A DNA stretch of 64,000 nt from Bernardetia sp. ABR2-2B (GTDB taxonomy: Bacteria > Bacteroidota > Bacteroidia > Cytophagales > Bernardetiaceae). Both the position numbers and the translations under genes were made by a program. The stretch's first letter is position 1. Every line of letters starts with the position of its first letter. This document shows positions 3,707-47,769 of this stretch, piece by piece. The stretch is taken from positions 3,886,001 through 3,950,000 of the forward strand of contig NZ_CP147020.1 of NCBI RefSeq assembly GCF_037126435.1, given 5' to 3'. The notes beneath the pieces were generated by a model, which did no database searches, was not told the origin of the DNA, and was given only the letters and a program-made list of their open reading frames with translations.

Positions 3707-4162
3707 ATGGCGAATTTATTAAGTGTAAAAGATTTTGCAGAGTTCAACAAAGCTACTCAAGAAGACTTACCAGATACCTTTTTGAAAAATGATATTGTTT
3801 ATCATCTTGCAGGTCAGATTTACGACCCATTTATGGAAAGTAATGATGATGATAATTTTACAGATATTCCTTTAAAGGGATTGATTGTAGATTCAGATTC
3901 AAAGCAAGATGCACAAGCCAAGTTTTCTCAAATGGGCAGAACGGATATGTCAGAGCATTATGTTCTTATCAATTTTGCTCAATTAGAGGAAAACAATTTA
4001 GTAGATAGCAATAGAGAACTTCTGATGGAAGCCGAAGCTGATTCTATTACCCTAAGAGGAGAACGTTATGAAGTTACAGCCGTGACACAAGTTGCTGATT
4101 TTGGAGATGAGAAAACGTATGTAAAGATAAGTTATAGAGATAATATCCGACCTAAAAAGTGA
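3707..4162 (+). CDS. Head-closure-like protein
   Basis: 151 residues with a beta-rich second half (DSITLRGERYEVTAVTQVADFGDEKTYVKISYRDN), the kind of small barrel seen in head-closure/stopper proteins. It sits between an adaptor-like gene and an HK97-gp10-like gene. No sequence signature is decisive; assignment rests on synteny. Confidence 0.45.
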   Translation: MANLLSVKDFAEFNKATQEDLPDTFLKNDIVYHLAGQIYDPFMESNDDDNFTDIPLKGLIVDSDSKQDAQAKFSQMGRTDMSEHYVLINFAQLEENNLVDSNRELLMEAEADSITLRGERYEVTAVTQVADFGDEKTYVKISYRDNIRPKK

Positions 4163-4168
4163 TGAGTT

Positions 4169-4705
4169 ATGCCAGTTCGTAGATTTGGAGATATTGGAAA
4201 GGCAAATAAGGTTTTTGAAAACTTAAGTCAAAACCTCATTAAAGCTGAAAAAAATATTCTAGCTAAAGTAGCTTCTAAGGCTGAACAGCTTGCCGTGGAT
4301 AGGATAAAGTCGCAACCTAGTGAGTGGAAAAGACTAAGCCCTGCTTATCTCAAAAGGAAATTAGGAGGTTCTTGGGGAAGAATAAGAAAAGATGGTAAGA
4401 GAGATAGACGCTACAAGAATAAATCTGAAAAAATATTGATTGCTAGTTCTACTTACATCAATTCTATTACATCTAATGTCAGTAACTCTTTAGTAGCGTA
4501 TGCAGGTGTGCCGAAAAATGCAAAGTATGATAATGGAGAAAGTGTAGCAAAAATAGCTGCCGTTCATGAATATGGCTCTACGAAGAAAAATATACCAGCT
4601 CGTCCTGTATGGATGCCTGTAAAAAATCAAGTAAGGACTTATATTTTGACTTCATCAGAGATTCCAAAAGAAATGAAGGGAGCTTTGCTTAGAGGAATAA
4701 AATAA
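4169..4705 (+). CDS. HK97 gp10-like tail-completion protein
   Basis: 178 residues, basic N-terminal half, then AAVHEYGSTKKNIPARPVWMP near residues 131-151. The 'HEYG...IPARP(F/W)' signature is characteristic of HK97 gp10/Mu G-like morphogenesis proteins that act at the head-tail junction. The gene begins seven bases after the preceding stop, consistent with an operon. Confidence 0.7.
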   Translation: MPVRRFGDIGKANKVFENLSQNLIKAEKNILAKVASKAEQLAVDRIKSQPSEWKRLSPAYLKRKLGGSWGRIRKDGKRDRRYKNKSEKILIASSTYINSITSNVSNSLVAYAGVPKNAKYDNGESVAKIAAVHEYGSTKKNIPARPVWMPVKNQVRTYILTSSEIPKEMKGALLRGIK

Positions 4706-36342: not shown

Positions 36343-36858
36343 CTAATAGCTAAAATAAATAATATGCACTCCAGTTTTGAAGTTTTCTAAAAACTCTTTC
36401 AAATAAATATACTCACTTTTTAGAAAAGGAACTAAAGACAATGCTGTTTCACGAGTATATATAAAAGGAATATCAAGTCTAAATTTTGTAGTTAAAAACC
36501 AATAACTCAAATCAAACTCTACTTCTTTAATCCAAAAAAGAAAAAACTCTTTTTGATATTCCACTAAATCTTCAAATTTAACTTTTTTATCTAAGTAAGG
36601 AACTCTAAACAATCCTTTCTTAGTGCAGATAACCTCATCTGCTTTACAAAAATCATATCCACTATGATTAATTTGATTTGATTTTTTTGCCGTTGCATTT
36701 ATATCTGTAACAGTTCTAAACGTTTTGCGTGAATTAGAAACATTCATGCAAATTTCCATTTCTTCATATTCTAAAGTGGTAAAATTATTATCAAAGCTAT
36801 GAAGAGATTTGTTAGTGTTAGGCTTTGCTATTTTACCGAAATATATATCTAGTCCCAT
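36343..36858 (-). CDS. Hypothetical protein, 171 aa
   Basis: Begins MGLDIYFGKIAKP, like several phage proteins with an N-terminal 'MGLDMYL' motif of unknown function. Contains HSGYDFCKADEV and an aromatic C-terminal half. It overlaps the stop of the upstream gene by one base. Confidence 0.5.
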   Translation of the reverse strand: MGLDIYFGKIAKPNTNKSLHSFDNNFTTLEYEEMEICMNVSNSRKTFRTVTDINATAKKSNQINHSGYDFCKADEVICTKKGLFRVPYLDKKVKFEDLVEYQKEFFLFWIKEVEFDLSYWFLTTKFRLDIPFIYTRETALSLVPFLKSEYIYLKEFLENFKTGVHIIYFSY

Positions 36859-37898
36859 TATTTATTTACGATTAGTTTAATATGCTCCTTTAAAATTTTA
36901 TTAATCACTTCTGGCTTTTTTTGAAAATTACGAGGACTTTTGAGAGCCTTTACCATCTTACCGATAAGCAGAACATAGTCTTCATCTCCCTTACAAGATT
37001 TTAGTAAAGTCTTGTACTCAAGTAATTGCTTTTCTCGCTCCTTTGTATGCTTAAAAGGTGTATTGTTCATACAAGTAGAACACATAAAAAGCTGCTGGTC
37101 TTCCCAATCGCTTTTCATTCCTTCAAAAGACATTTGTCCTTGTGAGACTTGCGCCCAATTTTTCGGAGGATTTTCTCCCCAACCCCAACAAAAGCCATTT
37201 GCTTTTACTTTTTGCTCTAGTTCTCTCATCTGGTTTACAAATTCTGGACTGATAAGGTTGATTTCGTCCAGTTCTTCTTTATTGCCAAATACACCACAAT
37301 TACATTCTCCACTCCTGCCGATGGTTTGGGCTACAACACTACGCTCAATATTATTTTTTTGAAAGTAATTGTGAATATCAGACTTGCTCCAATCTTGAAT
37401 TGGGTTTATCCAAATATCACTTCCACGAGCATCAATTTTCTTTACTGTACCCATTCTCCTTGTACTCTCATCGTATCTAGCTCCTGTAAGAAGAGCTATT
37501 TTATAATTTCTCTTGCGATTGCGTATTTTAGAAATACATCTACGCAAAGAATGATCTTTTAGCATTCGATACATTACTGTATGCTGCTTATGATTCCGTC
37601 CAGGAAAACCAAACTTCAAAACATAGTTTTGGTAGTCGTCTTTTTCGGTTGTTGTTCCGATGAGTAAAGGAATATCCATTTTCTCACATGTGTCCATCAC
37701 AAACTGTTTAGTTTGAGGAATGCAAGTACCTGTATCACAAAAAATAGCATAATCTATTTTGGGTAAAAATTCCATACAGACCTTGCCACAAGCCAAGGAG
37801 TCATCTCCTCCAGAGAAGAGCCAAACATACTTTTGTATATCGTGATTCTCTGAGACTTCATTTAGGATTTGTTTTGTGGATTGGAGGTTCATTGACAC
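36858..37898 (-). CDS. Phosphoadenosine phosphosulfate reductase-family protein
   Basis: 346 residues. The PP-loop SGGDDSLACG is at residues about 29-38, CDTGTCIPQT follows, and RRMGTVKKIDARGSDIWINP plus CNCGVFGNKEEL belong to the PAPS-reductase fold as found in phage and DNA-modification (DndC-like) proteins. A C-terminal FMCSTCMNNTPF adds a Cys cluster. The family activates or transfers sulfur or adenylates a substrate; here a role in nucleic-acid modification or sulfur metabolism of the infected cell is inferred. No DndD/DndE partner is nearby. Confidence 0.65.
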   Translation of the reverse strand: MSMNLQSTKQILNEVSENHDIQKYVWLFSGGDDSLACGKVCMEFLPKIDYAIFCDTGTCIPQTKQFVMDTCEKMDIPLLIGTTTEKDDYQNYVLKFGFPGRNHKQHTVMYRMLKDHSLRRCISKIRNRKRNYKIALLTGARYDESTRRMGTVKKIDARGSDIWINPIQDWSKSDIHNYFQKNNIERSVVAQTIGRSGECNCGVFGNKEELDEINLISPEFVNQMRELEQKVKANGFCWGWGENPPKNWAQVSQGQMSFEGMKSDWEDQQLFMCSTCMNNTPFKHTKEREKQLLEYKTLLKSCKGDEDYVLLIGKMVKALKSPRNFQKKPEVINKILKEHIKLIVNK

Positions 37899-45312: not shown

Positions 45313-45879
45313 TTATTGCTTAAGAGATGGTTTGATGTCTACAAAATCACTTTCTTTGTCATTAGAGGTGTTTTTCTTTCTGCCCTCATACGTTATATCT
45401 ACTCTTTGCCCTCTCAAATAGAATTTATTTGGGTTTGCTTTTTCGCCATCTACTATTTCTCCTGCAACTATATTCAAAGTCTTGATTAAGTTTACAGGTA
45501 TAGTCTGTTTCATTGAAAATTCCTTTTTTGTTAGAGGGTCATAAAAAACAACTACTTCTACATTTTTCAATTCTCCTTCTATTTCCATTGGCAATGTTAC
45601 CATTCTGCTAATGCTCACTCCAACACGCTTGTACTGGCGAAGCAGGAAAATTGCATCATCATACTCATCTTTTGTTTCAGCTTTTTCAAGCCTTTTTTCT
45701 GCCTTCTCTATTTCTTTTGGAATCTCTTTATTTTTCACTTGTTGAAAAGACCAAAAGTCATGAGTGATACTGGCATTTGTATTTTCAGTTAGATAAGCCT
45801 TCTTAGCTTCTTCCTGTGTAAATGATTTTGTAGTAAGAGATTGCTCTTGTACAATTAGCTCTGTTGTTTGATTGTCCAT
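45313..45879 (-). CDS. Early protein paired with the RecE-like nuclease
   Basis: 188 residues: helical N-terminus (QEEAKKAYLTENTNAS), then a beta-rich section (ISRMVTLPMEIEGELKNVEV, VVFYDPLTKKEFSM) ending in a disordered tail. A single base separates it from the nuclease gene, so they are made together. A single-strand-annealing role is suggested by the pairing only; no RecT or Erf motif is seen. Confidence 0.5.
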   Translation of the reverse strand: MDNQTTELIVQEQSLTTKSFTQEEAKKAYLTENTNASITHDFWSFQQVKNKEIPKEIEKAEKRLEKAETKDEYDDAIFLLRQYKRVGVSISRMVTLPMEIEGELKNVEVVVFYDPLTKKEFSMKQTIPVNLIKTLNIVAGEIVDGEKANPNKFYLRGQRVDITYEGRKKNTSNDKESDFVDIKPSLKQ

Positions 45880-45940
45880 AGTTTTGAAATAAATTAAAAT
45901 TGATAAAAATTGAATTGAATAAAACTGATTTGAAGTTTTG

Positions 45941-45981
45941 AAGAGTGATGGGATTCGAACCCATTTTAGCCTTCCACTCTT
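45941..45981 (-). ncRNA. tRNA-like acceptor/T-arm minihelix
   Basis: On the - strand: AAGAGTG (7-nt stem), a 10-nt linker GAAGGCTAAA, a 5-bp T-stem ATGGG/CCCAT with the loop TTCGAAT, and CACTCTT closing the 7-bp acceptor stem without mismatch. D and anticodon arms are absent. It lies four bases after the stop of the HTH protein gene and before the recombination pair. This is the shape of a minimal RNase P substrate; function as a processing signal is inferred. Confidence 0.6.
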
Positions 45982-47005: not shown

Positions 47006-47270
47006 AAATTGAAAATTCAGCGATGTGAGTTTCTTGTCCTGTTAGCTCTTTTACTTCCGTTTTTAGTTTTTCCACCATAGCAAGTATGCTATAATGACTA
47101 CTTAGGATTTGCTTTTCCTCTCCTTTTTCTTGATCAGAGAGTTTTCTAAATTTTGATTCTGTAAAATCAAATTTGATTTCTAGGTAGCCTGTTTCAGACT
47201 TGAGTTTTGAGAGAAAAGTAAATACTTGTTCTTTTGGCTTGTTGATGGGGTTGTTGATTAGCTCGTTCAT
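46983..47270 (-). CDS. Hypothetical protein, 95 aa
   Basis: Charged helical protein (EQVFTFLSKLKSETGYLEIK). Its ATG overlaps the stop of a 37-codon upstream frame as ATGA. Unrecognised. Confidence 0.5.
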   Translation of the reverse strand: MNELINNPINKPKEQVFTFLSKLKSETGYLEIKFDFTESKFRKLSDQEKGEEKQILSSHYSILAMVEKLKTEVKELTGQETHIAEFSIYETPSKQ

Positions 47271-47380
47271 TTGCGTAATAGATTAGAGATAAAGATTTCA
47301 GTTTCGATTTTGACACGGATTCCAAAACAGATGATATGATACAGAGCGTGCCGAATGAGTTTCTTTAAATGCTTTTTCAT
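47267..47380 (-). CDS. Very small basic protein, 37 aa
   Basis: MKKHLKKLIRHALYHIICFG ... LLRK: strongly basic with one hydrophobic patch. Its TGA overlaps the next ATG (ATGA), which supports real translation and coupling. Too short for homology to be judged by eye. Confidence 0.4.
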   Translation of the reverse strand: MKKHLKKLIRHALYHIICFGIRVKIETEIFISNLLRK

Positions 47381-47410
47381 TGTTTTCTGATTGAATAGAA
47401 TTTTATTTAG

Positions 47411-47483
47411 TGGGTCTTACAAGATTCGAACTTGTAATCTTTTCATTATGAGTGAACTGCTTTGACCGTTAAGCTAAAGACCC
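47411..47483 (-). tRNA. tRNA with CAT anticodon (Met or Ile2)
   Basis: Full cloverleaf on the - strand: acceptor GGGTCTT/AAGACCC (7 bp), D-stem GCTT/AAGC with loop AACGGTCA, anticodon stem GTTCA/TGAAA (one mismatch), loop CTCATAA with anticodon CAT, 5-nt variable loop, T-arm ACAAG-TTCGAAT-CTTGT, discriminator A. CCA is not encoded. A phage-carried tRNA in the early operon; elongator Met or Ile (lysidine) cannot be separated by eye. Confidence 0.85.
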
Positions 47484-47495
47484 AAAATTACTAAC

Positions 47496-47544
47496 CTACT
47501 TATCGGAGCGACTAACTCCTATACCTCTTCGCATAGGCTAGTAG
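47496..47544 (-). ncRNA. Structured element, three-way-junction-like
   Basis: CTACT (47496) pairs with AGTAG (47540); inside are GGAG-CGACTAA-CTCC (47505-47519), with a 7-nt loop, and CCTAT/ATAGG (47518-47537). The arrangement recalls a cloverleaf lacking a T-arm. It lies between the intact tRNA and a tRNA-Leu-like gene, so it may be a degenerate tRNA or another structured RNA. Confidence 0.4.
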
Positions 47545-47564
47545 TGAATTTAGAAATGAAGAGG

Positions 47565-47619: not shown

Positions 47620-47653
47620 TGTTGCAGTCGACTCTTCTGAGGTGATTGCCTGT

Positions 47654-47769
47654 GGAAGTGGCAGGGTTCGAACCTGCAAAGCTTTTTAAAGAATATTTGA
47701 GTTTTTAGGATTTCAACTGTTTACTCTATTTTTTAAAACTCCCCCACCGCTGGGTTGTGGTGCGCTTCC
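47654..47769 (-). tRNA. tRNA-Leu(TAA)-like gene with a 28-nt insertion in the anticodon loop
   Basis: 116 nt on the - strand: acceptor GGAAGCG/CACTTCC (6 of 7 pairs), D-arm CCAC/GTGG with an atypical loop, T-arm GCAGG-TTCGAAC-CCTGC perfect. The anticodon arm begins GAGTTT and ends TAAAAACTC, but 28 nt starting TAAAAAATAGAG lie between, flanked by TAAAAA direct repeats. Removing one repeat and the insert restores GAGT-TTTAAAA-ACTC, anticodon TAA, and an 88-nt class II tRNA. It may be a broken gene or one with a small intron; the D-loop lacks the usual GG. Confidence 0.5.

Follow-up and report, generated by a model that had tools for sequence, protein, structure and literature searches.

A tRNA slot in the early operon of a Bernardetia prophage, cut down to an acceptor/T-arm helix: a possible mRNA-processing mark

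tRNA-shaped signals at gene borders

In mitochondria, tRNAs lying between genes set the ends of mRNAs, as the available parts of two sources describe it (PMC3471875, PMC8601606). Plant mitochondria also carry t-elements, presented in the accessible portion of one source as known substrates of RNase P and RNase Z, and in Silene vulgaris a degenerate, arm-less fMet tRNA pseudogene near atp6 is thought to be a cutting signal (PMC8662596). The minimal mitochondrial tRNAs of mites and nematodes, in which the D or T arm is missing, are reduced in shape and functional, according to the excerpted source (PMC2797822). For bacterial RNase P, a hairpin made of acceptor stem, T stem and T loop serves as a model substrate (excerpts of PMC11143913, PMC11221534), and the earlier note on this DNA, which called such a helix a minimal substrate of the enzyme, is thus in line with print. 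The extracted text of one of these sources adds that RNase P cuts the C4 antisense RNA of P1 and P7, phage M3 RNA, T4 gene 32 mRNA and polycistronic operon mRNAs (PMC11143913).

Several answers have been proposed to the question of why tRNA genes occur in phages, among them the supply of codons, escape from defences that target tRNAs, and a benefit to lysogeny (available passages of PMC10264068, PMC11555353, PMC10865867). Searches of mostly non-subscription literature, one combining phage tRNA pseudogenes and RNase P and another directed at polycistronic RNA processed in a tRNA-like way, gave no element of the kind described below among the matches listed, as far as the extracts of those sources go. 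Here we describe a bare acceptor/T-arm minihelix at a gene border in a Bernardetia prophage; it lies in a 64-kb stretch of DNA, G000:C1:3886001-3950000, that we call the window, meaning the whole stretch analysed.

Prophage setting and structure of the minihelix

The window lies inside a prophage, which measures ~87 kb if its right end is correct. Its left end adjoins tRNA-Arg(CCG) and carries the gene of an integrase (L040 11223-12716; phrog_1, E 3.9e-36), and a 23-bp, 96% copy of the 3' end of this tRNA at C1:3958505-3958527 is the candidate right end. Since the prophage integrated at tRNA-Arg(CCG), the minihelix was rejected as a phage attachment site. Sheath, tape-measure and major head genes are recognisable, and an array of 14 tRNAs (G000:C1:3879451-3880686, L040/L041) lies inside the prophage between the integrase and head genes.

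tRNA arrays are also found elsewhere, with six in the prophage contig of the related genome G037 and eight in the window genome at C1:3438202-3438850. Outside the prophage, a row of tRNA-like elements of 109-134 nt each occupies L043 10240-11300 (G000:C1:4796240-4797300); three of them score above the RF00005 cut-off (44.7-50.8 bits), a GGTCAA...TTACTTC motif is repeated, and a 798-aa ORF without a Pfam match (L043 11441-13837) adjoins the row. The row has a weak YrlA match (RF02553, 25.3 bits, cut-off 69), on which we tentatively read it as an array of Y-RNA-like tRNA mimics. Within the window, a 346-aa ORF at 36858-37898 on the minus strand is one that, by eye, we take to resemble a PAPS-reductase-type protein.

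The features of the early region, all on the minus strand, are as follows.

47653..47745, minus strand: second degraded tRNA-like element, upstream in the same gene series (RF00005, 17.1 bits)
47410..47483, minus strand: tRNA-Met (CAT) of the same early gene series, 73/74 nt identical in the related locus L057
45985..46656, minus strand: upstream gene, 223 aa, phrog_66-like excisionase/transcriptional regulator (E 2.6e-4, residues 138-217)
45941..45981, minus strand: acceptor/T-arm minihelix, by sequence, fold, descriptor scan and RF00005 (21.4 bits over 45940-45981)
45975..45981, minus strand: 5' acceptor strand AAGAGTG, by sequence
45965..45974, minus strand: 10-nt linker GAAGGCTAAA, in place of the D and anticodon arms, by sequence
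45948..45964, minus strand: T arm ATGGG-TTCGAAT-CCCAT (ATGGG 45964-45960, TTCGAAT 45959-45953, CCCAT 45952-45948)
45941..45947, minus strand: 3' acceptor strand CACTCTT, with no CCA encoded, followed by C45940, by sequence
45880..45939, minus strand: 60-nt leader of the next gene, conserved in both homologues
45921-45939, minus strand: AAAACT...AGTTTT hairpin opening the leader, seen by eye in all three loci
45313..45879, minus strand: downstream gene, 188 aa, no family match; the homologue in the related locus L056 has 45% identity, and none was found in L057
44247..45311, minus strand: second gene after the slot, 354 aa, no family match itself

The minihelix occupies a gene border on the coding strand, 3 nt past the regulator stop and 61 nt ahead of the next start, and the reading frames of the flanking genes are open on both sides. 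In L057, the second gene after the slot is exonuclease VIII-like; this and the phrog_66-like regulator support the site proposed in the earlier note, between a regulator gene and recombination genes. Further upstream, in the degraded element at 47653-47745, the T arm (GCAGG-TTCGAAC-CCTGC) is perfect, the acceptor contains mismatches and an anticodon arm cannot be recognised; relaxed ARAGORN calls on both of its strands were treated as noise. Directly upstream of tRNA-Met, at 47484-47550 on the minus strand, an 11-pair stem encloses a hairpin (-18.5 kcal/mol, z -2.3, 4/200 shuffles); it has no Rfam match at E <= 5 and by eye does not occur in L057. Directly after tRNA-Met (~47267-47380, minus strand) we read by eye an open frame of 37 codons, in a stretch where 120/131 aligned positions are identical in L057 (gapped alignment), so that it may encode a conserved small protein.

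The minihelix itself runs from 45981 to 45941 on the minus strand, with a 7-bp stem stacked on a 5-bp stem, a TTCGAAT cap and a 10-nt linker. All 12 of its pairs are Watson-Crick, and the RNA folds in this form at -11.4 kcal/mol, which confirms the perfect stems, loop and linker that had been reported from the letters alone. The folding energy is unremarkable, both for the element (z -1.8; 13/200 shuffles at least as stable) and for the element with its flanks (z -1.4; 21/200). It is the tRNA-shaped arrangement, not folding energy, that sets the minihelix apart. A descriptor of this shape (loop TTCRANH; T stem of 5 bp, G-T permitted; acceptor of 7 Watson-Crick pairs; linker of 4-20) matched once in the 64-kb window, at the minihelix, as against 0.015 matches per shuffled window in 200 dinucleotide shuffles, and matched nowhere in seven other pieces (L040, L041, L042, L048, L049, L056, L057).

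A canonical tRNA gene is ruled out at this site: RF00005 aligns to the minihelix from end to end with the D and anticodon arms omitted and scores 21.4 bits, below the 29-bit cut-off, default ARAGORN makes no call, and there is no D or anticodon arm. With relaxed thresholds, ARAGORN gave just 'tRNA-???' across a longer stretch. We read T45941 as aligned with the discriminator U73 of the homologues, judging by the 3' trailer CAAAAC; on this alignment the outermost A-T of the 7-bp acceptor may involve what used to be position 73, one nucleotide having been lost. Compared with the corresponding stretch of the L057 tRNA-Cys, the linker is not significantly similar, 93% of shuffles scoring equally well.

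The same slot in related prophages

Genome G099, a Bernardetia MAG, has two early regions with the same regulator, L057 on contig C11 and L056 on contig C54, and regulator homologues are present in both. The slot of L057 holds a canonical tRNA-Cys(GCA) (4110-4183), 8 nt past the stop of the homologous regulator gene and with the conserved leader on its other side; in this locus tRNA-Met and tRNA-Cys are the only ARAGORN calls. The slot of L056 holds a non-canonical 78-nt tRNA-like element (11573-11496), 5 nt past the regulator stop, which scores 26.0 bits with RF00005 and has no default ARAGORN call. With its flanks it takes a four-arm fold (z -2.9), in which, by our reading, the loop at the anticodon position is 8 nt long and the one at the D position lacks GG; trimmed of the outer acceptor, it folds no better than shuffles (z -0.9). 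Its middle resembles the L057 tRNA-Cys only as much as shuffled sequence does (14% of shuffles score as high), and as a whole it reaches a best score of 3.0, with tRNA-Asn, against the 56 distinct tRNAs of the fetched loci. A relaxed ARAGORN call of tRNA-Ser(CGA), with its 5' end shifted by 24 nt, was treated as noise. The acceptor, T stem and T loop of the L056 element are perfect, and the three homologues share one T-loop sequence.

These loci show the slot in three states: an intact tRNA-Cys in L057, an arm-scrambled tRNA-like element in L056 and the bare minihelix in the window. Because a related prophage keeps an intact tRNA-Cys in the same slot, the minihelix is, on this comparison, a relic of a tRNA gene and not a structure built from scratch, which supports the tRNA nature earlier claimed for it. 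Decoding has apparently been lost in two of the three slots, with the acceptor/T helix still perfect.

On the favoured reading, the slot once held a complete tRNA, most likely tRNA-Cys. The trailer TCAAAA is common to the minihelix, L057 and the host tRNA-Cys gene; position and trailer together would tie the slots to tRNA-Cys, and the stems give no proof. Among 54 tRNAs with readable stems, the stems of the minihelix are nearest to tRNA-Trp and tRNA-Ile (6/24 differences, against 9-11 for tRNA-Cys) and those of L056 are nearest to tRNA-Asn (3/24 differences). Replacement of one tRNA by another within the slot is possible. The 3' half of the array tRNA-Ser(TGA) was set aside as a source despite its match, as L057 synteny points to tRNA-Cys, and the tRNA-Cys of Cellulophaga phages phi19:3 and phi13:2 was set aside for its other context.

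When the T stem is taken as the anchor for aligning the acceptor strands of the three sequences, every one of the 36 cells (12 pairs x 3 sequences) is a standard pair; in these three homologues, two of them from one MAG, both partners have changed in 6/12 pairs and a single partner in 2. The compensatory changes that the earlier note advised seeking in related phages are therefore found. Only 2/500 column shuffles attain the observed pairing percentage or as many both-side changes, and 20/500 attain as many pair types; slid registers are 47-67% paired with at most 1 both-side-changed pair. When 9-11 differences are placed randomly in the 24 stem nucleotides, all 12 pairs are kept in 6.5e-5 to 1.3e-4 of trials. 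These comparisons indicate that the slot kept structure, not sequence, and that selection acted on the acceptor/T helix over the whole divergence, a result that makes no statement on the period after anticodon loss.

Between the window and L057, the slot differs at 11/24 stem positions and the early tRNA-Met at 0/24. For calibration, 16 cross-locus isoacceptor tRNA pairs with readable stems differ at 0 to 11 of 24 positions; two tRNA-Glu pairs (unreadable stems) and four comparisons of array tRNA-Met with the early tRNA-Met (17-18 differences) are omitted from this range. One pair reaches 11, and it involves the window genome's second tRNA array, which may not belong to a phage; between the two prophage arrays the maximum is 8/24. 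Because related tRNAs of the same isoacceptor diverge as far, the 11/24 stem differences do not prove change after the loss of decoding, and this argument was dropped. For the same reason, the minihelix could come from a decoding tRNA whose middle was lost recently. The better argument is that two of the three slots apparently lost decoding in different ways, with acceptor, T stem and T loop perfect in both.

The conservation extends beyond the helix. BLAST figures are used for the leader because gapped global identities are inflated (74% even for an L057 gene without a protein match). By blastn, the T arm and leader are 93% identical over 67 nt between L057 and L056, 82% between L057 and the window, and 79% over 99 columns between the window and L056, where the end of the regulator gene reaches only 68% over 243 nt. 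The T arm and leader are thus better conserved than the regulator gene (79-93% versus 68%), yet the 188-aa protein of the window is unmatched in L057.

Further copies were sought in several collections. A covariance model of the minihelix, run with stricter filters on 390 genomes of the order, scored the window copy at 71.8 bits and the best other match at 29.6, with matches in 142 genomes at E <= 0.5. No further bare acceptor/T arm was found among the 11 inspected matches (19 other loci fetched): 7 belong to ordinary tRNA genes, and the other 4 do not combine a TTCRA-type T loop with both stems. The arrangement of regulator plus slot occurs, among the matches listed, at three loci only (window, L057 and L056). 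In the 390 genomes, the regulator alignment A1 has full-strength matches only in the window genome and the two G099 contigs; in the other 15 of 17 matching genomes the matches are weak (E 2.4e-11 or worse) and confined to the C-terminal part. The same alignment found one locus in genome_contigs, among the matches listed, and no relatives in viral_contigs, and tblastn with the L057 regulator gave no match in phages and plasmids. The 188-aa, 354-aa and 400-aa early proteins have no relatives in viral_contigs, the 354-aa protein has none in phages, and in a set of 98 genomes without G099 the 188-aa protein has no match but itself. A leader pattern fitting L056 and L057 found nothing in viral_contigs, and a leader search in 11 genomes of the family gave, beyond the three slots, seven weaker matches, none with the early genes. 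In the fetched contig of the related G037, the early region is absent except for a 40-nt match.

From a proposed processing signal to known systems

We favour, with confidence that stands about midway, the reading that the minihelix is a retained mRNA-processing mark like the t-elements of plant mitochondria. In its broader form, a phage counterpart of the t-element, tRNA genes of the early operon would punctuate the mRNA, this role would outlive decoding, and in one lineage such a gene would have shrunk to a bare acceptor/T helix, the part required by RNase P and RNase Z; of this generalisation we are slightly less than half convinced. The proposed course begins with an early operon of these Bernardetia prophages that has a tRNA slot, with the regulator gene before it and the recombination-position genes after it. 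In the window prophage the D and anticodon arms would have been deleted, and the 12-bp acceptor/T helix and T loop kept for the tRNA's second job, that of severing the polycistronic early mRNA through its own excision. RNase P is predicted to cut just before 45981, so that the downstream mRNA would begin with the minihelix. RNase Z recognises the same acceptor/T helix as RNase P; its predicted cut near 45940/45939 would then give the downstream mRNA a 5' end of its own and would also free the 3' end of the regulator mRNA.

For this course we infer that transcripts run through the slot, that they are cut there and that selection persisted once decoding had gone. On the minus strand, a promoter-like match of the sigma-70 type (45991-45963; 2 sites in the region, 0.8 expected) overlaps the minihelix, and because of this overlap transcription through it is not certain. 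No intrinsic terminator was found on the minus strand of the region, and no Bacteroidota-type -7 box was seen by eye in the leader. The interpretation as mRNA processing by RNase P is strengthened by the homologues, which make it more probable and do not demonstrate it.

The main competitor, rather doubtful in our view and still to be taken seriously, is a dead relic: a phage tRNA gene that lost its middle in one recent deletion and now has no function, its stems undecayed for lack of time. The intact tRNA-Cys in the homologous slot is consistent with this, as are a stem divergence within or near the range of related tRNAs and the other tRNA-like element of this gene series, which lies 1.7 kb upstream and is further decayed; with three homologues only, a single recent deletion accounts for perfect stems without function. 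The earlier note had held that neither chance nor simple decay would keep both stems, and this stands for chance, at 0.015 such structures per shuffled window, and falls for decay, as one recent deletion would keep them. A dead relic nevertheless needs separate recent one-step events in the window and in L056, with acceptor, T stem and T loop perfect after both, and it sits uneasily with 12/12 strict Watson-Crick pairs in the window, though 60/72 single substitutions in the stems break a pair and 12/72 keep it. The rarity of the shape in shuffled windows also speaks against a chance hairpin, for which the unremarkable folding energy (z -1.8) could be cited; the tRNA in the homologous slot and the other homologues already contradict it, and we give it practically no weight.

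The conserved leader invites two further explanations. A structural 5'-UTR element, in which the helix and the AAAACT...AGTTTT hairpin stabilise the downstream mRNA or bind a protein with no cleavage, would suit a T arm and leader that are better conserved than the preceding regulator gene (79-93% versus 68%) and a hairpin seen by eye in all three loci; a candidate binder would be, for instance, the regulator encoded upstream or an enzyme that binds tRNAs. A plain stem, however, needs neither a tRNA T loop nor a length of 12 bp, and the canonical tRNA in the L057 slot should be cut out, so that we regard this element, binding site included, as unlikely. Alternatively, the conserved T-arm/leader stretch could be a DNA-level junction, a linker where downstream genes are swapped by homologous exchange, with the pairing incidental. 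BLAST similarity does begin in the T arm and continue through the leader, beyond which the 188-aa protein has a homologue in L056 and none found in L057, but the compensatory changes between the acceptor strands, of which one falls beyond that stretch, would be unexplained, and this junction seems to us very unlikely.

If the mRNA-processing reading is true, a slot whose decoding is lost in two of three cases and whose helix is perfect adds mRNA punctuation to the reasons for which phages carry tRNA genes. It would also provide a natural, in-operon case of a minimal RNase P substrate otherwise obtained from laboratory constructs.

Set beside mitochondrial punctuation, as the sources at hand describe it, the minihelix differs in standing in a phage early operon where the tRNA itself no longer decodes. 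It is reduced like the tRNAs of mites and nematodes, but keeps the T arm and has no anticodon (judged against the accessible source text). The model RNase P substrates of the AT1/pATSer type likewise consist of acceptor stem, T stem and T loop only (PMC11143913, PMC11221534); in the excerpts available these are laboratory constructs, whereas the minihelix is natural, with no encoded CCA, an A-T first pair and a 10-nt linker. C4, M3, gene 32 and operon RNAs share with it that a phage or polycistronic RNA is cut away from a decoding tRNA, which is predicted for the minihelix; for those RNAs cleavage is reported, and the available text does not present them as relics of a tRNA slot. The closest natural parallel is, by this analogy, the plant mitochondrial t-element. 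Within the portions of the literature available, both are tRNA-derived or tRNA-like, stand at a gene border, do not decode and keep the terminal helix, and the cutter is RNase P and/or RNase Z; the t-elements differ in belonging to an organelle and not a phage, in being known substrates as opposed to a predicted one, and in that the minihelix is perfect, not bulged. The locus is best described as the tRNA slot of an early operon cut down to its putative processing helix, apparently new as a phage case and with a mitochondrial precedent in kind.
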